Source: Plantibacter elymi (nom. nud.) | GTDB taxonomy: Bacteria; Actinomycetota; Actinomycetes; Actinomycetales; Microbacteriaceae | Reading direction: 5' to 3' | Length of the DNA stretch: 64,000 bases | NCBI RefSeq assembly: GCF_900177795.1 | Contig: NZ_FXWJ01000003.1 | Coordinates: 1-64,000 of the forward strand | Part shown: in pieces, positions 9,364 through 19,619 of the stretch | Numbering within the stretch: position 1 is the first letter of the stretch | How the letters are laid out: every line of letters begins with the position of its first letter | Notes under the pieces: model-generated | Told to the model about the DNA's origin: nothing | Seen by the model: only the letters and a program-made list of their open reading frames with translations | Databases searched by the model: none | Position numbers and translations under genes: made by a program

Positions 9364-10268
9364 GAGTCCTCCGGGACGACCTCGGTGCCGGAGCCGTTCT
9401 GGGTGAACACCTCGAGCAGGATGGAGTGGGGCACGCGGCCGTCGATGATGGCGGCCTTGGCGACCCCGCCGTCGACGGCGTCGAGGCAGGCGGTCATCTT
9501 CGGGATCATGCCCGATTCGAGCGTGGGCAGCATGGCTCGCAACTCACTCGTCGTGATCTGCGAGACGAGCGAGTCGCGGTTGGGCCAGTCGCTGTACAGC
9601 CCGGCGACATCGGTCAGGATGACGAGCTTCGCGGCACCGAGTGCGACGGCGAGCGCCGCGGCGGCCGCATCGGCGTTCACGTTGAGCGTCTGGCCGGGCT
9701 GGTCGAGGTCGGGGGCGATCGAGGAGACCACCGGGATGTTGCCGGCGTCGAGGTAGGCCTGCACCGAGGTCGGGTCGACGCTGACGACGTCGCCGACGAG
9801 CCCGATGTCCACGGTCTCGCCGTCGACGACGATCGAGCGACGACGCCCGCCGAACAGGCCCGCGTCCTCGCCGGACAGTCCTGCGGCGAGCGGGCCGTGT
9901 TCGTTGATCCGCCCCACGAGCTCGGGGTTGACCTGACCGGTGAGGACCATGCGGACGACCTCCATGGCCTCGGGCGTCGTGACCCGGTACCCGCCGCGGA
10001 ACTCGCTGTGGATGTCGAGCCGCTCGAGCATCGCGGAGATCTGCGGGCCTCCACCGTGCACGACGACGGGCTTCAGCCCCGCGTAGCGCAGGTAGACCAT
10101 GTCCTCCGCGAACGCCTGCGCGAGTTCGTCGCTCACCATCGCGTTGCCGCCGAACTTGACGACGATCGTCTGGTCGCGGAAGGTCTTCAGCCAGGGAAGC
10201 GACTCGATGAGGGTGGCGGCCTTGATCGCCGCCTCCTCGGGAGAGTTGTCTCGATACTGGGTCATCAT
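9360..10268 (-). CDS. argB: Acetylglutamate kinase
   Basis: It phosphorylates N-acetylglutamate, usually the feedback-controlled step. The amino-acid-kinase fold is visible from 'VVKFGGNAM' near residue 37, through 'VVHGGGPQI', to the nucleotide loop '[11 protein letters not shown]' and '[11 protein letters not shown]'. The 302-residue length suits the arginine-sensitive type with an N-terminal helix. The ATG at 10268 overlaps the argJ stop (TGATG). A second ATG follows immediately at 10265. Confidence 0.95.
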
Positions 10269-12678: not shown

Positions 12679-13368
12679 CTACGACGACGAGGATGCCGAC
12701 GAATCCGCGCCCGGCGCCGCCCGCTCGGCGATGAGCGCGGCCTGCACCCGCGACCGGGCGTCGAGCTTCACGAGGATCCGGGACACGTGTGTGCGGGCCG
12801 TCGCCTCCGACAGCCCGAGCACGGTCGCGATCCCCGCGTTGCTCAGTCCCGCGCGCAGCTGCTCGAGGACCTCACGCTCCCGCGGTGTCAGTGTGGCCAG
12901 ACCGGGGTGCGGCGTTGCCGGCTCCGGCACGACCGGAGGTTTGGCCGCGGCGAGACGTTCGAGGACTCGGCGGGTCACCTCAGGGGCGAGCACCGCCTCG
13001 CCCGCATGCACTCGTCGGATCGCGTCGACGAGGCCGGCAGCGGAGACCGTCTTCACCAGGAAGGCGTTCGCCCCGGCCGCCAGCGCCTCGTCGACGTACC
13101 GGTCGAGCGCGAAGGTGGTGAGCATGATGATGCTCGGCGGCGGGGTGGCCGCAGCGAGGATGGCCGGGATCGCGTCGATCCCGGAGGCACGCGGCATCTG
13201 GACGTCGAGCAACACGACGTCCGGTCGATGTCGCGCGGCTTGCGCGACGACGGCCTCCCCGTCCGCCGCCTCGGCGATGACCAGGATGTCGTCCGGCTCG
13301 TCGAGCAGTGCTCCGAGACCCGCTCTGACGGCCGCGTGGTCGTCCGCGATGAGGACCGTGATGGTCAT
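12679..13368 (-). CDS. NarL/LuxR-family response regulator
   Basis: The 229-residue protein has a receiver domain (acidic pocket D9-D10, phospho-acceptor D55 in 'VVLLDVQMPR', K106 in 'FLVKT') and a C-terminal LuxR-type helix-turn-helix ('LTPREREVLEQLRAGLSNAGIA' with 'TVLGLSEATARTHVSRIL' following). Its ATG overlaps the histidine kinase stop by 4 bp, so it is the cognate partner. The serine-rich tail is unremarkable. The regulated genes are unknown; the arg cluster lies 201 bp downstream, but I see no direct link. Confidence 0.9.
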   Translation of the reverse strand: MTITVLIADDHAAVRAGLGALLDEPDDILVIAEAADGEAVVAQAARHRPDVVLLDVQMPRASGIDAIPAILAAATPPPSIIMLTTFALDRYVDEALAAGANAFLVKTVSAAGLVDAIRRVHAGEAVLAPEVTRRVLERLAAAKPPVVPEPATPHPGLATLTPREREVLEQLRAGLSNAGIATVLGLSEATARTHVSRILVKLDARSRVQAALIAERAAPGADSSASSSS

Positions 13369-14648
13369 GACGCCCCTCCTGCGGTGACGACCGCGGGAGT
13401 GGCCGGCGACACCGGGGTCGGCACGGTGAGCGCCGTCCGCCAGTCGGGACCGTCCGGCCCCGCGACGAGGTCGCCTCCGACGAGACGTGCCCGCTCGGCC
13501 AGGCCGACGAGGCCGACCCCACCGGACCCGGCGAGCACCGAAGACGCAGTCGCCGTCGGCAGCGGGTTGCTGAGCGTGACGGACAGCGCACCGGGCGGGA
13601 GCGAGACCTCGACCCGCACGGAGGCACCCGGTGCGTGCTTCGCGGTGTTCGTCAGGCCTTCGACGAGCGTGCGGAGCCCGACGATCGAGGTCTGTGCGGG
13701 GACCTCGGCGAGCGCCGCGTCGTCCGGTGCCTGTACCTCCACCTCCAGTCCGTTGGCACGGGCGACCTCGACCGCGCGGCGGACCGACTCGGCCGTGAGT
13801 CGATCTGGTGCCTGGGTCAGCTCGTCGGTCGACTGGTCACCGCGGAGCACGTCGATCATGGTGCGCATGTCGGCGAGCGCGTCGAGACTGCTGGTCCGGA
13901 CGAGCGTGAGGCTGCGCCGCAGCGCCACCGGGTCGGTGCCGTCGCGTCGTTCCAGGGCCGCCGCCGACTGCATCGCGATCGCCGAGAGGTGACCGGCGAT
14001 GACGTCGTGCAGCTCCCGGCTGAGCTCGAGCCGTTCACGGGTCACGGCGTCCTGCCGGAGCGCAGCCGCTGCCTGGGCGATCGTGTCCGCGCGCTCGCGC
14101 TGGCGTTCGGCCTCGAGACGTGGGTACCGGACCATCCTGCCGTACCAGATCGAACTCGCCAGGATGACCGGGACGATGATGAGCGAGCCGAGGACCACGC
14201 CGCGACCGAGCCGGGTGACGGCCTCGACGTCGTCGGTGAACCAGATCACCGCGAAGACACCGACCGACACGACGGCGAGCGCGGTGCAGGCGAACGCGGC
14301 GACGTCCATGACCCGGGACCGCGAGTAGAGCGCCGCCGCATAGGCGAGGTCGGACACGATGATGAGCATCCCGAGGCCGCTGCCTCCAGTGGTGAGCGCC
14401 TCGGCGAGGGCGATCAGGACGCCGACGGCCAGCGTGGTCAACGGGCGTCGGCGGCGGAGCAGGTGCACCGCCAGGATGGCCGCGAGGAAGACGAGTGTGA
14501 GGAGGAGCGGCGGTTCCGACACGGTCGCCCCCCATGGGACATGGATCCCGAGGAGGGCGAACAGGAGTCCCATGGCTGCGCACACCGTGGTGATGACCGG
14601 CTCGCGGTGTCGATCCACCCATGCGCGCGGTCCTTCGAGAGCAGCCAT
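13365..14648 (-). CDS. Membrane histidine kinase of the NarL-type pair
   Basis: Six hydrophobic segments occupy residues about 17-36, 47-63, 69-86, 92-109, 116-136 and 150-168, with little outside the membrane. A HisKA_3 dimerisation region follows with phospho-acceptor H214 in 'SRELHDVIAGHLSAIAMQ', then an ATPase domain with 'TNTAKHAPG' (N box) and 'GGVGLVGLAERARLVGG' (G box). The start at ATG 14648 gives 427 residues; GGAGG lies only one or two bases before it, so the start is not certain. This architecture suits sensing of membrane or cell-envelope state. Confidence 0.85.
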   Translation of the reverse strand: MAALEGPRAWVDRHREPVITTVCAAMGLLFALLGIHVPWGATVSEPPLLLTLVFLAAILAVHLLRRRRPLTTLAVGVLIALAEALTTGGSGLGMLIIVSDLAYAAALYSRSRVMDVAAFACTALAVVSVGVFAVIWFTDDVEAVTRLGRGVVLGSLIIVPVILASSIWYGRMVRYPRLEAERQRERADTIAQAAAALRQDAVTRERLELSRELHDVIAGHLSAIAMQSAAALERRDGTDPVALRRSLTLVRTSSLDALADMRTMIDVLRGDQSTDELTQAPDRLTAESVRRAVEVARANGLEVEVQAPDDAALAEVPAQTSIVGLRTLVEGLTNTAKHAPGASVRVEVSLPPGALSVTLSNPLPTATASSVLAGSGGVGLVGLAERARLVGGDLVAGPDGPDWRTALTVPTPVSPATPAVVTAGGAS

Positions 14649-14788
14649 GCCTCCATCACACCAGCTCGAGCCGCCCGGCGCGAGCGTCGGGGGGACGAGC
14701 CCTCGTACGCAGTTCCGCTGACCCCGTCGCCGGAGGATCAGCAGCACGGTCGATGTGGCACGGCATCACCCCGCGACACCATCGGAAC

Positions 14789-15436
14789 ATGGACAGCTTC
14801 ACTGAACTCTTCGGCACGAGCCCACTCATCTGGGCCATCCTCGGCGCGGAGGCCGCGTTCTGGATCCTCCTCTTCGGCGGGCTCGCGGTCCGTTACCTCC
14901 TCCGGCGGCGCCGGCTCAGCGCGATCATGTTGATCGGTGTACCGGTCGTGGACCTCGTCCTCCTGGTCCTGACCGCGACCGACCTCACGTCCGGCGAGGA
15001 GCCGAACGTCACGCACCTCCTCGCGACCATCTACCTGGGCTTCACCGTGGCGTTCGGCCACGCGCTCATCACGAAGGCGGACGTGTGGTTCGCACACCGG
15101 TTCGCGGGCGGTCCAGCACCGCGGCCGAAGCCGAAGTCCGGGCCAGCATACGTCCGGGCCGCCTGGTCGGAGTGGCGTCGGGTGGTCCTCGCCGTCGCGA
15201 TCGCGGTCGCCGGGCTCCTCGCGATGCAGGCCATGGTCGGCTGGACCGTCCCCGCGTCCTTCGCCCTCGCGAACGAGGACGTCATCTGGGGCATGATCAT
15301 CAAGCTCGTCGCGATCACCGGCATCTGGTTCGCCGCAGGCCCGGTGTACGCCGTCCTCTTCCGGAGCTCCGACCCCTCGCCTGACGCCACGGAGCGGGTT
15401 TCGGATTCCATTCGGACACCTCAGGGGCGCCCCTAA
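14789..15436 (+). CDS. Integral membrane protein of unknown function
   Basis: The 215-residue protein has about six hydrophobic segments (residues about 13-35, 45-60, 78-94, 126-148, 153-165 and 167-187) and a basic loop with 'PRPKPKSGP'. It is divergent from the histidine kinase, 140 bp away, and precedes the XRE-MurA gene by 36 bp. I do not recognise the family. The ATG at 14789 starts 'MDSFTELFG' directly before the first helix. Confidence 0.55.
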   Translation: MDSFTELFGTSPLIWAILGAEAAFWILLFGGLAVRYLLRRRRLSAIMLIGVPVVDLVLLVLTATDLTSGEEPNVTHLLATIYLGFTVAFGHALITKADVWFAHRFAGGPAPRPKPKSGPAYVRAAWSEWRRVVLAVAIAVAGLLAMQAMVGWTVPASFALANEDVIWGMIIKLVAITGIWFAAGPVYAVLFRSSDPSPDATERVSDSIRTPQGRP

Positions 15437-15441
15437 CGGCG

Positions 15442-15465
15442 CTCTATCTCATATCTGAGATAGAG
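15442..15465 (+). promoter_or_regulatory. Perfect inverted repeat, candidate operator of the XRE-MurA gene
   Basis: The arms CTCTATCTCA and TGAGATAGAG (10 bp each) flank a TATC spacer. The repeat ends 7 bp before the ATG at 15473 and overlaps the place of the ribosome-binding site and probably the promoter. A dyad of this size is typical for XRE-family repressors, and the adjacent gene encodes an XRE domain. Autoregulation is the simplest inference. Confidence 0.65.
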
Positions 15466-15472
15466 TGACGAC

Positions 15473-17032
15473 ATGGAAGACACGGCAACGTTTGAACGAA
15501 CGGACCCTGCGGCACCGCTCCGGCAGGTCGGAGCACTCATCCGCGGCGCCCGTCAGGGACGCAAACTCACCCAGGCCCAGCTGGCGGAACGCGTCGGCAC
15601 GAGCCAGAGCGCGATCAACCGGATCGAGCAGGGCAGTCAGAACATCAGCATCGACCTCCTGAGCCGGATCAGCACCGCGCTCGAGAGTGAGATCGTCAGT
15701 TTCGGCGAACAGAAGAAGAACTCGCACCTCCGCGTCCAGGGCGGCCGACAGCTGCACGGAACCATCGCGGTGCGTTCGAGCAAGAACGCCTCGGTCGCGC
15801 TCCTGTGCGCCGCGCTCATGAACCGCGGCCGCACCACGCTGCACGGCATCGCCCGGATCGTCGAGGTCGACCGCATCATCGACGTCCTGCGCAGCCTGGG
15901 CGTCTCCGTGGTCTGGTCGCCCGACGGCCAGGACGTCGAGATCCACGTCCCGGACGACCTCTCACTCGAGAGCATCGACGAGGACGCCGGTCGCCGGACC
16001 CGCAGTGTGCTCATGTTCCTCGGTCCGCTGCTCGGCCGCTACGACACCTTCGCCCTCCCCTACGCCGGTGGTTGCGACCTCGGGACCCGGACCGTCGAAC
16101 CGCACCTCATCGCGCTCCGGCCGTTCGGCCTGTCCATCGAGGCGACCGCCGGCTGGTACCAGGCCACCGTCGCCCCCGACGTGCCCGAGGAGCTGAGCGT
16201 CGTGCTCACCGAGCGCGGCGACACCGTGACCGAGAACGCCATCATGGCCGCCGCGGTGCGCGACGGCGTGACGACCATCCGCAACGCCAGCCCGAACTAC
16301 ATGGTGCAGGACCTCTGCTTCTACCTGGAGCTCCTCGGCATCACCATCGACGGCATCGGGAGCACGACGCTCCGGATCACCGGCCGCAGCGTCATCAACG
16401 AGGACGTGGACTACTGGCCGAGTGAGGACCCGGTGGAGGCGATGAGTCTGCTCACCGCCGGGATCGTCACCGACTCGGAGATCACCGTCACGCGCGTGCC
16501 GATCGAGTTCATGGAGATCGAGCTCGCGACGCTCGGCGAGATGGGACTGCGCTACACCCGCTCCCCCGAGTACGCGGCGGCGAACGGCCGGACCCGACTC
16601 GTCGACGTCACCGTGCACCCCTCGAAGCTGCACGCCCCGATCGACAAGATCCACCCCATGCCGTTCCCAGGGCTGAACATCGACAACCTCCCGTTCTTCG
16701 CGGTCATCGCGGCCTGCGCCGAGGGCGACACGCTCATCCACGACTGGGTGTACGAGGGCAGGGCGATCCACCTCACCGACCTGACGCGACTCGGCGCGAA
16801 CGTCCGCCTGCGCGACCCGCACCGCATCGACGTCTCCGGGCCGACGCACTGGTCAGGCGCCGAGGTGAGCTGCCCTCCCGCGCTGCGACCGGCCGTCGTC
16901 ATCCTGCTCGCCATGCTCGCCGCGAAGGGCACGAGCGTGCTCCGGAACGTGGACATCATCGCTCGCGGGTACGAGCAGCTGCAGGAGCGACTCATCACCC
17001 TGGGTGCGTCGATCGAGACCTTCCGCGACTGA
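15473..17032 (+). CDS. XRE-type DNA-binding domain fused to a MurA-like enolpyruvyl transferase
   Basis: Residues 15-76 form a Cro/CI-type helix-turn-helix ('LTQAQLAERVGTSQSAINRI'). From about residue 85 to the end (519) the protein is a complete EPSP-synthase/MurA-type transferase. Residues matching the MurA active site are kept: K104-N105 (K22 in E. coli MurA), C201 in 'GGCDLGTRTVEPH' (C115), R206 (R120), D404 in 'PFPGLNID' (D305) and R472 (R397). It could therefore transfer enolpyruvate to UDP-GlcNAc or a similar sugar, the first step of peptidoglycan precursor synthesis. The fusion suggests a transferase that also binds DNA, perhaps its own promoter palindrome. Whether it is the cell's main MurA or a paralogue cannot be told here. 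Confidence 0.85.
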   Translation: MEDTATFERTDPAAPLRQVGALIRGARQGRKLTQAQLAERVGTSQSAINRIEQGSQNISIDLLSRISTALESEIVSFGEQKKNSHLRVQGGRQLHGTIAVRSSKNASVALLCAALMNRGRTTLHGIARIVEVDRIIDVLRSLGVSVVWSPDGQDVEIHVPDDLSLESIDEDAGRRTRSVLMFLGPLLGRYDTFALPYAGGCDLGTRTVEPHLIALRPFGLSIEATAGWYQATVAPDVPEELSVVLTERGDTVTENAIMAAAVRDGVTTIRNASPNYMVQDLCFYLELLGITIDGIGSTTLRITGRSVINEDVDYWPSEDPVEAMSLLTAGIVTDSEITVTRVPIEFMEIELATLGEMGLRYTRSPEYAAANGRTRLVDVTVHPSKLHAPIDKIHPMPFPGLNIDNLPFFAVIAACAEGDTLIHDWVYEGRAIHLTDLTRLGANVRLRDPHRIDVSGPTHWSGAEVSCPPALRPAVVILLAMLAAKGTSVLRNVDIIARGYEQLQERLITLGASIETFRD

Positions 17033-17052
17033 GTCCGTCCCGTCCGACGGAC

Positions 17053-17085
17053 GCGGCCCCGCAGATCATCGATCCGCGGGGCCGC
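17053..17085. terminator. Bidirectional hairpin between the XRE-MurA gene and pheT
   Basis: The arms GCGGCCCCGC (17053-17062) and GCGGGGCCGC (17076-17085) form a perfect 10-bp stem with a 13-nt loop. It lies between two convergent genes, where a shared terminator is expected. No long T-run follows in either direction. Confidence 0.7.
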
Positions 17086-17105
17086 TGTCGTCCGGTACGA
17101 CCGGC

Positions 17106-19619
17106 TCAGTCCCGGATGCTCGCGCCGAAGCGCTCGGCCGCGACTGCCGCGCCGGCCAGCTTCGCGTCGCTCGCCTCCGCCGCGGTGAGCGTGCGGTCCG
17201 GCGCGCGGAACCGCAGGGCGAAGGTCAGGCTCTTGCCGCCCTCGGGGACGCCCGAACCGCGGTAGTCGTCGACGAGGCGGATGTGCTCGAGCAGCGAACC
17301 GGCTCCGACCCGGACGGCGTCGAGAACCTCACCGGCTGAGACCGTCGCGGGGACGAGCAGCGAGAGGTCCTGCGTCGCCGCGGGCAGGGTTCCGATGCCG
17401 ACGGCCTCGGGCAGTGCGTCGCCGAGCGCGATGATGCGATCCAGATCGAGTTCCGCGACCGCCACGACCCGCGGCAGGTTCGCCTCCTCGGCGACGGCCG
17501 GGTGCACCTCCCCCGCGTACCCCACCAGGACGTCGCCGACATGCAGCGCCGCAGTCCGTCCGGGGTGCAGCGCCTGATGGCTGCCCTGCGAGACGGTGAT
17601 GTCGACGCCGGTCGCCACCGCGACGGCCTGGACGGCCTCGAGCGCGTCGGCGATACCGGCCGCGACCGCGGGCTGGCCCGGCTGCTTCGGGACGGCGTTG
17701 CCGACCGCGAGGAAACCGAGATGACGCGGTTGGGCCGGGACGCCCGCCTCGAGCTCCTCGAGCTGGGCCTCGCTCGGCCGGGCCGCCGCCTGCGGGAGTT
17801 CGGCCTGGCCGAACGCACCATGACGGGACGGACGGAACACCGCGCCGACCTCGAAGATCGAGAGGTCGGTCAGACCACGCGAGACGTTCCGGTGGGCCAC
17901 CGCGAGGAGACCGGGCAGGATCGACGCACGGAGGAATGGGGCCTTCGCGTCCAGCGGGTTCGCGAGCTTCACAGCTGGGAACACACCAGGCTGCGGAGCG
18001 CCGAACCGGGCGTTCTCCTCGGCGGAGACGAACGGGTAGGCCAACACCTCGGTGGCGCCGCCGTAGGCGAGCGCATCGGCGACCCCACGGCGCAACCGCT
18101 GCGAGCGCGAGAGCCCGCGTCCCGGAGGCGCGACGGGGAGCACCGACGGGATGCGGTCGTACCCGAGGATCCGCGCCACCTCCTCGGCGAGGTCCTCCTT
18201 GCCGGTGATGTCGTGGCGCCAGCTCGGCGGCGTCACGAGCAGGCCGCCATCGGTCGCCTCGACGGCCGCGCCGATCTCGGCGAGCGCGGACCGTGTCTCG
18301 TCCGCCCCGAACGTGACGCCGATGAGGCCGTTGATGTAGTCGTCGGGGAGCAGGATCGGCTCGCGATCCGGCGCCGTGGTGACGGTTGAGCCGAGGTCGT
18401 CTGTCCGGCCACCGGCCAGGTCGACGAGCAGCTGCGCGACGCGACCGGCGGCCGCGACGGCGATCTGCGGATCGACACCGCGCTCGAACCGCTTCGAGGC
18501 CTCGCTCGGCAGCTTGTGGCGGCGCGCGCTCCGCGCGATGGACACCTGGTCGAAGTTCGCGGCCTCGATGAGGACGTTGCGCGTGGCATCGGTGATCTCG
18601 GTGTCGAGGCCACCCATCACGCCCGCGAGCCCGATCGGGCCCGAATCGTCGGTGATCAACAGGTCCTCGTCGTGGAGCTTCCGCTCCTGGCCGTCGAGCG
18701 TGACGAAGGTCTCGCCGGACCGCGCGCGCCGGACGACGATGCCGCCCGTGAGCTTGTCGAGGTCGTACCCGTGGATCGGCTGTCCGAGCTCGAGCATGAC
18801 GTAGTTCGTGATGTCGACGACGAGCGACAGTGAGCGGATGCCGGCGAGCTTCAACCGCGCCACCATCCACGGTGGGGTCGGCTTCGTCGGGTCGACGTCG
18901 CGCACGACGCGGGTGACGAAGACGCTCGACCCGACGCGATCGCGGATCGGCGCCGCATCCTCGATCGTGACGGGGAAGCCGTCGAGTGGTCCGGTGAAGG
19001 CTTCGGGAACGCTCGCCGCCGGGTCACGGAAGGCCGCCCCGGTCGCGTGCGAGTACTCGCGTGCGACCCCTCGGATCGAGAACGCGTACCCGCGATCGGG
19101 CGTCACGTTGAGCTCGACCGCAGCGTCGTCGAGACCGAGCAGGCTGATCGCGTCGGTGCCGACGGGTGCCTCGACCCCGATCGTCGAGAGGCGCAGGATC
19201 CCGTCGTGGTCCTCACCGAGACCGAGCTCGCGAGCCGAGGCGATCATGCCGTCCGACACGTGGCCGTAGGTCTTGCGAGCGGCGATCGGGAAGGGACCGG
19301 GCAGCACGGCGCCGGGCAGAGTGACGACCACCTGGTCGCCGACGAAGAAGTTGCCGGCGCCGCAGACGATGCCCCGCACGGCCCCCTCGGCGTCACCCTC
19401 GGCGACACGGACCTGGCACCAGCGGATGGTCTTGCCGTTGGACTGCGGCTCCTCGACGAACTCGAGGACCTCGCCGACCACGATGGGACCGGTCAGCTCG
19501 AAGCGGTGGACGTCCTCCTCCTCGAGCCCGACGCGCACGAGTGCCGCGTGGACGTCTTCGGGGGTGGTCCCCGGGGCGAGTTCGACGAACTCCCCGAGCC
19601 AGCTCAATGGAACACGCAC
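17106..19619 (-). CDS. pheT: Phenylalanyl-tRNA synthetase beta subunit
   Basis: With PheS it forms the heterotetramer that charges tRNA-Phe. The order of domains is normal: B1 ('MRVPLSWLGEFVEL'), tRNA-binding EMAP-like domain (about 40-150), B3/B4 editing region, B5, the catalytic-like core ('FLRASILPGLL') and the C-terminal ferredoxin-fold anticodon domain. The length of 837 is typical. It starts 3 bp after the pheS stop. Confidence 0.96.
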   Translation of the reverse strand: MRVPLSWLGEFVELAPGTTPEDVHAALVRVGLEEEDVHRFELTGPIVVGEVLEFVEEPQSNGKTIRWCQVRVAEGDAEGAVRGIVCGAGNFFVGDQVVVTLPGAVLPGPFPIAARKTYGHVSDGMIASARELGLGEDHDGILRLSTIGVEAPVGTDAISLLGLDDAAVELNVTPDRGYAFSIRGVAREYSHATGAAFRDPAASVPEAFTGPLDGFPVTIEDAAPIRDRVGSSVFVTRVVRDVDPTKPTPPWMVARLKLAGIRSLSLVVDITNYVMLELGQPIHGYDLDKLTGGIVVRRARSGETFVTLDGQERKLHDEDLLITDDSGPIGLAGVMGGLDTEITDATRNVLIEAANFDQVSIARSARRHKLPSEASKRFERGVDPQIAVAAAGRVAQLLVDLAGGRTDDLGSTVTTAPDREPILLPDDYINGLIGVTFGADETRSALAEIGAAVEATDGGLLVTPPSWRHDITGKEDLAEEVARILGYDRIPSVLPVAPPGRGLSRSQRLRRGVADALAYGGATEVLAYPFVSAEENARFGAPQPGVFPAVKLANPLDAKAPFLRASILPGLLAVAHRNVSRGLTDLSIFEVGAVFRPSRHGAFGQAELPQAAARPSEAQLEELEAGVPAQPRHLGFLAVGNAVPKQPGQPAVAAGIADALEAVQAVAVATGVDITVSQGSHQALHPGRTAALHVGDVLVGYAGEVHPAVAEEANLPRVVAVAELDLDRIIALGDALPEAVGIGTLPAATQDLSLLVPATVSAGEVLDAVRVGAGSLLEHIRLVDDYRGSGVPEGGKSLTFALRFRAPDRTLTAAEASDAKLAGAAVAAERFGASIRD

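Follow-up and report, generated by a model that had tools for sequence, protein, structure and literature searches.

MurA is the target of fosfomycin and the gate into peptidoglycan synthesis, and the matching of its amount to need is a standing question. BirA, PutA and NadR are trigger enzymes which regulate their own genes.

Two further systems are relevant here, and both are cited from extracts of the published papers. HipB is described as recognising the operator TATCCN8GGATA and as autoregulating (PMC3376134). For Streptomyces murA2, the extracts report activation by BldM-WhiI, with a footprint (PMC4125116), SigB-dependence of SCO5998 (PMC8346170), that overexpression of murA2 did not reproduce the effect of whiI on exploration (PMC11005364), and that at SCO5998/SCO5999 murA2 adjoins aconitase and a predicted DmdR1 site (PMC12161575). 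The gene examined here lies in the window (the whole 64,000-nucleotide stretch of DNA that was analysed) and is referred to as HTH-murA.

Gene and domain organisation

HTH-murA and its 3' flank contain the following features:

15473-17032, + strand: open reading frame of HTH-MurA, 519 amino acids, stop codon included
15512-15682, + strand: XRE helix-turn-helix (HTH), residues 14-70 (HTH_3, 49.3 bits; four helices in the model)
15605-15628, + strand: recognition helix, residues 45-52 (T43, S44, Q45, S46, R50 and E52 in 124-126 of 126 genes)
15683-15721, + strand: linker, residues 71-83 (residues 75-80 with pLDDT below 50 in the predicted structure)
15722-17029, + strand: MurA-fold enolpyruvyl transferase domain, residues 84-519
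17053-17085, no strand assigned: strong G+C-rich hairpin 3' of the stop codon, between HTH-murA and the convergent pheT, without a T run

The preliminary description had proposed an intact XRE HTH fused to a MurA-like domain, and this is borne out. HTH_3 (Pfam) matches residues 23-73 at 49.3 bits against a cut-off of 23, so that an XRE regulator domain is present, and EPSP_synthase (Pfam) matches at 141 bits over the full length of the model. The structural prediction which had been suggested gives four HTH helices, a short linker and the two-domain MurA fold, with NikO among the structural fold matches.

The stretch 17025-17105 folds with −51.1 kcal/mol (z −4.5), and the hairpin within it is a possible terminator without a T run. 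A consensus scan of 15300-17150 gave no sigma-70 promoter and no terminator-like site. Upstream, a reading frame at 14621-15436 had no match in a Pfam search, and close to it is a two-component pair (HisKA_3 sensor kinase and LuxR-type response regulator; window 12679-14747, − strand). Conserved operon partners were considered and rejected, as the commonest neighbour family occurs in only 21 of 81 loci; this count comes from crude six-frame ORFs in high-GC DNA, many of which are antisense noise.

Placement among MurA proteins

Judged by its sequence, HTH-MurA belongs to a MurA group of its own within the actinobacteria. When 45 sequences were placed in a tree, the 21 HTH-MurA tips grouped together, apart from 23 canonical MurAs including that of E. 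coli; support at the HTH-MurA ancestor, where the single AroA outgroup roots the tree, is low (0.054), and the grouping is read from topology and the long branch (0.75) only. The protein scores 282.3 bits to the MurA equivalog model TIGR01072, below the cut-off of 392.7, and its full-length relatives score 281.5-318.3. It exceeds the cut-off of the MurA subfamily model NF006873 (299.3 bits against 297; two relatives 312 and 328) and falls far below that of the AroA model TIGR01356 (63.6 against 287.25), to which the real AroA of the same genome (C6:276808) scores 358.8 bits. For the HTH, the best NCBIfam match is a HipB-type model, below its cut-off, and the best PDB match is a HipB-named chain; neither TIGR03070 (HipB; 44.8 bits against 71.65) nor NF007271 (20.8 against 79) reaches its threshold.

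Catalytic residues and nucleotide pocket

The alignment set comprised the HTH-MurAs, 26 other MurA-type sequences (found with E. coli MurA in the same loci) and E. coli MurA; two weak matches, L131 and L127 (an AroA), were excluded. The 126 distinct HTH-MurA genes are a recount by distinct residues 20-149, which removes the same gene from loci cut at different ends.

Equivalents of E. coli MurA K22, N23, C115, R120, D305 and R397 had been claimed for the protein, and all six are present by alignment, as K104, N105, C201, R206, D404 and R498; R91, H125, R331 and R371 are likewise kept. Among the distinct genes, K22, N23, R91, C115, R120, H125 and D231 (E. coli numbering) are identical in 126/126, and D305, R331, R371 and R397 are kept in 125, the exception being L178, in which the frame ends early.

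HTH-MurA has other, near-fixed residues in place of P121, D123, L124, K160, V161, S162, V163, G164, E188, E190, R232 and T304 of E. coli MurA. The canonical uridine/diphosphate pocket residues (121, 123, 124 and 162-164) are therefore not matched: across the 126 genes these positions read T/S, E/Q/T, P and GDT, with the replacement of S162-V163-G164 by GDT in every one. The other MurAs carry P, D and SVG at 121, 123 and 162-164 in 22-25 of 26 sequences, position 124 being variable among them. Residues 121-124 have a role in uridine binding. An extract of one study (PMC8698320) assigns diphosphate binding to the region Ser162/Val163/Gly164 and describes two MurAs as agreeing in all of their PEP-site residues. 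Since the catalytic and PEP-site residues are kept and those of the pocket are replaced, the chemistry and PEP side of HTH-MurA is, as far as the alignment can tell, intact and the nucleotide side rebuilt. Substrate affinity may differ from that of canonical MurA as a result of these pocket differences.

Overall, 62 alignment columns are fixed differently in HTH-MurA and canonical MurA, and 53 are common to both. In all ten genome pairs compared with the window's genome, conservation is higher for the enzyme part of HTH-MurA than for canonical MurA (67.8-81.4% versus 63.6-75.7%).

A conserved palindrome on the promoter of HTH-murA

Three features were recognised directly upstream of the gene:

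15442-15465, no strand assigned: predicted operator, a perfect 10+4+10 inverted repeat, CTCTATCTCA-TATC-TGAGATAGAG
15445-15462, no strand assigned: family core TATCTCA-N4-TGAGATA, within the predicted operator
15461-15466, + strand: putative −10 element TAGAGT (TAnnnT), the right operator arm ends in its first two bases; the ATG follows after 6 bp

A scan of the 64-kb window allowing 3 mismatches finds the core pattern twice, here without mismatch and at approximately 223-242 with 3, where shuffles average 0.03. When palindromes were scored against TATCTCANNNNTGAGATA, at least 11 of 14 positions matched within 230 bp upstream in 94/94 loci (a set that includes at least one repeated gene, L011 and L037), compared with 0.2 of 94 in the dinucleotide shuffle control (20 each). 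Counted by distinct gene, 125 of 126 have the predicted operator at this threshold, 42 scoring 14, 51 scoring 13, 20 scoring 12 and 12 scoring 11, with L178 failing at 7; these genes are related and are not independent trials. They span Microbacteriaceae, Cellulomonas-type genera, Nocardioides, Aeromicrobium, Geodermatophilus, Blastococcus, Brachybacterium, Streptomyces and others. L051, L053 and L054 have a good copy approximately 104-137 bp before the aligned start and a degenerate copy near the gene.

Across 103 distinct promoters, information content is 1.0-2.0 bits at the arm positions, apart from 0.8 at the leftmost base, and does not exceed 0.4 in the 30 bp upstream; the left arm is conserved about as much as the right. 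The operator ends in TA and is followed by nnnT, the T being present in 97 of these 103 promoters, so that the −10 element accounts for part of the conservation of the right arm. In 116 of 125 genes the fourth base beyond the operator is a T and an in-frame start codon follows the operator at 10-12 bp. As the TAnnnT box lies 6-8 nt before the start codon, the HTH-murA mRNA is probably leaderless, with the operator placed inside the promoter.

Pairing of the HTH with the operator

The recognition residues are nearly fixed: T43, S44, Q45, S46 and R50 are kept in 124-125 of the 126 genes, E52 in 126 and A47 in 123. Departures at residue 44 or 47 occur in three genes, L074 (the same as L248), L227 and L178. 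L074 combines S44T and A47V with the operator TATCGCA-TATA-TGCGATA, in which both arms are changed symmetrically, and S44T is found elsewhere only in L178. A47V was rejected as a compensatory change because L227 carries it (with S46N and N49S) and yet has the consensus operator; only S44T therefore tracks the operator change, and the covariation amounts to one gene.

In L178, MTEQDIEQIE replaces TSQSAVNRIE in the recognition helix, there is no operator, and HTH-MurA is the only MurA found in the genome. The frame (G302:C1:1261852-1263000) stops early and the rest of MurA is matched at G302:C1:1263000-1263347, so this is either an assembly error or a lineage that lost the DNA-binding half.

A search for the variant L074 operator in that bacterial family gave matches in 9 of 341 genomes, with one exact site, at L074's own gene in its own genome. 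In G710, the one genome checked of the eight others, the variant site is not at HTH-MurA, and its HTH-MurA has a consensus-type operator.

Distribution and the MurA complement of genomes

Within genus g91 (probably Streptomyces), 120 of 121 genomes carry an HTH-MurA gene, as do 47/49 Aeromicrobium genomes and 16 of 396 genomes in a phylum-wide sample. Horizontal carriers were rejected: 41 phage records match, all at less than 60% identity, and the 20 matches listed all start at query residue 66 or later, without the HTH, whilst two replicons labelled "plasmid" measure 2.8 and 11.9 Mb. Many short "phage" records hold MurA-like genes 27-30% identical to the window's protein which resemble ordinary bacterial MurA, and these are perhaps mislabelled contigs.

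Seventy-nine genomes were searched with TIGR01072 (E ≤1e-20), 73 with HTH-MurA and six controls from the window's family chosen for the absence of an HTH-MurA match. Each of the six controls has one MurA over the cut-off. A MurA over the cut-off is present besides HTH-MurA in 35 of the 73 (G056 and G161 share identical coordinates and are probably one genome). In the other 38 HTH-MurA is the only MurA found. Some actinobacteria with HTH-MurA (G163, G155 and G153; loci L133, L135 and L137) have an additional MurA, 38-46% identical to that of E. coli. The 38 genomes are G033, G108, G070, G133, G302 and G467, all 18 genomes searched of genus g95 (Aeromicrobium), and 14 identified through named loci in Nocardioides, Mumia, Aeromicrobium, Rarobacter, Serinibacter, Pseudoclavibacter and a Micrococcales genome. 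The 24 of them with a value given are 98-100% complete, and a PF00275 search of G033, G157 and G158 found only two genes in each, HTH-MurA and an AroA over its cut-off. Peptidoglycan makers need a MurA and only HTH-MurA was found, from which we infer that it must be the working enzyme in these 38 genomes.

The search for a second murA without an HTH, which had been proposed for the window's genome, found one at G000:C7:687435-688727 (423 bits to TIGR01072). That another MurA does all the work, raised in the preliminary description as a case against its proposal, is thus possible in this two-MurA genome, but does not apply to the 38 genomes with HTH-MurA alone.

Further operator-like sites

In the window's genome the pattern matches once exactly, once with 2 mismatches and nine times with 3, compared with five sites for the reversed control pattern. 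Amongst 150 genomes of the family, 14 have HTH-MurA; six of these have a site within 1 mismatch, all at HTH-murA, and in the other eight the operator departs from the pattern by 2-3 mismatches. Five of the 136 family genomes without HTH-MurA have a site within 1 mismatch somewhere.

A set of 16 genomes was also searched (G033 and G070 are also in the family set, and G161 probably duplicates G056). In 14 of the 16, one of them with a tie, HTH-murA has the best site. There are 33 sites within 2 mismatches, 15 at HTH-murA and 18 elsewhere, against five for the reversed control; seven of the 18 read TATCTCG-N4-CGAGATA, a different motif. In G154 and G161 the HTH-murA operator is beyond 2 mismatches and the sites listed are elsewhere, and in G155 a second site ties with that of HTH-murA at 1 mismatch. 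A small excess of sites away from HTH-murA therefore exists, and the predicted site is not strictly private.

G155 also shows two operator-like sites 48 bp apart and away from HTH-murA (C123:9866-9883 and 9914-9931; 1 and 2 mismatches), which are a possible second target in that genome. A different palindrome, TATCTCGATGTCGAGATA, is found approximately 0.5-3 kb from HTH-murA in Streptomyces-type genomes (G150:C2:237342, G151:C16:29149 and G152:C55:382273), and in L101 the neighbour on that side is an aconitase. We take it to be possibly the site of another regulator, TamR.

A wide regulon is not supported, given one exact site and one at 2 mismatches in the window's own genome and best sites that are nearly always at HTH-murA. 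As to the suggestion that the protein is a regulator switching gene expression, the operator-like site on its own promoter supports the part concerning its own gene, and a switching of other genes is not supported. With the best site so regularly at HTH-murA, the window's protein looks like an autoregulated enzyme rather than a wall-regulon regulator.

Relationship to Streptomyces MurA2

In the Streptomyces locus L101, HTH-MurA is next to a divergent aconitase, AcnA, as is described in the published extract for SCO5998/SCO5999, and this supports orthology with SCO5998; Streptomyces MurA2 (SCO5998 / sven5810 / vnz_28735) is probably the ortholog of HTH-MurA. The SigB promoter letters published for SCO5998 were looked for without success in the 1 kb upstream at 26 loci taken as Streptomyces-like; none of these is from S. 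coelicolor, and those with names include two Actinacidiphila and one Kitasatospora. An undescribed wall-supply sensor had been proposed; no description of a MurA DNA-binding domain or operator was found in the open-access literature, among the matches listed and as far as their extracts go.

Discussion

The domain layout, the catalytic residues, the MurA fold, the near-universal promoter palindrome and the sole-MurA status in many genomes come directly from the computation. A fixed HTH, a fixed operator on the gene's own core promoter and few other sites make autorepression by an active MurA the simplest account, and we put a probability of roughly 75% on HTH-MurA being a working MurA that also represses its own gene through the palindrome on a leaderless promoter. 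The enzyme would convert UDP-GlcNAc and PEP to enolpyruvyl-UDP-GlcNAc. As a dimer, its two HTH domains would bind the two arms of TATCTCA-N4-TGAGATA, and the bound protein would cover the DNA ahead of the −10 element, reach into the element itself and so exclude RNA polymerase, acting as a repressor rather than an activator. Plentiful or idle enzyme would then repress the gene, and transcription would resume when the enzyme is depleted or engaged.

A stronger form of autorepression is the wall-supply sensor, in which UDP-GlcNAc, PEP or UDP-MurNAc in the active site would switch DNA binding, so that transcription follows precursor supply and not merely the amount of enzyme. MurA closes on its substrate, a short linker joins the HTH to the enzyme, and the nucleotide-pocket loop is replaced by other invariant residues, all of which would suit such gating; part of the linker is, however, predicted with very low confidence and is probably flexible, which argues against tight coupling. 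Gating by these ligands is speculative, and we hold it somewhat below even odds. The same pocket changes (P121, D123, L124 and 160-164 replaced by near-invariant residues, with SVG to GDT throughout) raised the idea that the enzyme domain uses a different acceptor, as NikO does, or is a mere sensor, with the canonical MurA making the wall precursor in the window's genome; that second MurA and the NikO fold match both favour it. The idea was then lowered by the 38 genomes in which HTH-MurA is the only MurA found, and as GDT is at the loop in all 126 genes compared, we consider it unlikely.

The palindrome could also serve a different regulator, or belong to a sigma-factor promoter, with the HTH doing something else. 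Its right arm does overlap the −10 element, and according to the published extracts other regulators also act on Streptomyces murA2, which is a BldM-WhiI target (PMC4125116) and, as SCO5998, a SigB target (PMC8346170). The left arm is nevertheless about equally conserved and is not a promoter element, and the BldM and BldM-WhiI consensus sequences, as given in those extracts, differ from the palindrome. Sites within 1 mismatch also go with the gene (6/14 genomes with it, 5/136 without), and L074 changes both arms symmetrically along with its recognition helix, which together make this explanation very improbable. Under autorepression by a working MurA, control over transcription would be built into the gatekeeper enzyme itself in lineages including Streptomyces, where MurA2, the likely ortholog, is developmentally controlled, and Nocardioides and Aeromicrobium, where the genomes searched gave no MurA besides HTH-MurA. 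Thanks to the predicted operator, the idea of self-regulation can be put directly to the test with a single protein and a short DNA duplex.

Comparison with known systems

Canonical MurA (TIGR01072; E. coli MurA, MG1655 b3189) and HTH-MurA have the fold and the catalytic and PEP-site residues in common, and would share the family role, the first committed step of peptidoglycan synthesis. Canonical MurA is without an HTH, whereas HTH-MurA is approximately 27% identical to the E. coli protein and has its nucleotide-pocket residues replaced. Streptomyces MurA2 is likened to HTH-MurA through the L101 gene order and the published description; the extracts available treat it as a plain UDP-GlcNAc transferase and do not mention an HTH or palindrome. 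With HipB-type XRE repressors there is similarity in the HTH and a common operator frame, TATC-N10-GATA, but the HTH examined here is fused to MurA, is without a toxin partner and scores below the couple_hipB and HipB cut-offs. A further parallel is with the trigger enzymes BirA, PutA and NadR, in which an enzyme and a DNA-binding domain in one chain control their own promoter; HTH-MurA, with its predicted DNA binding, would do the same with a different enzyme and in a different pathway.
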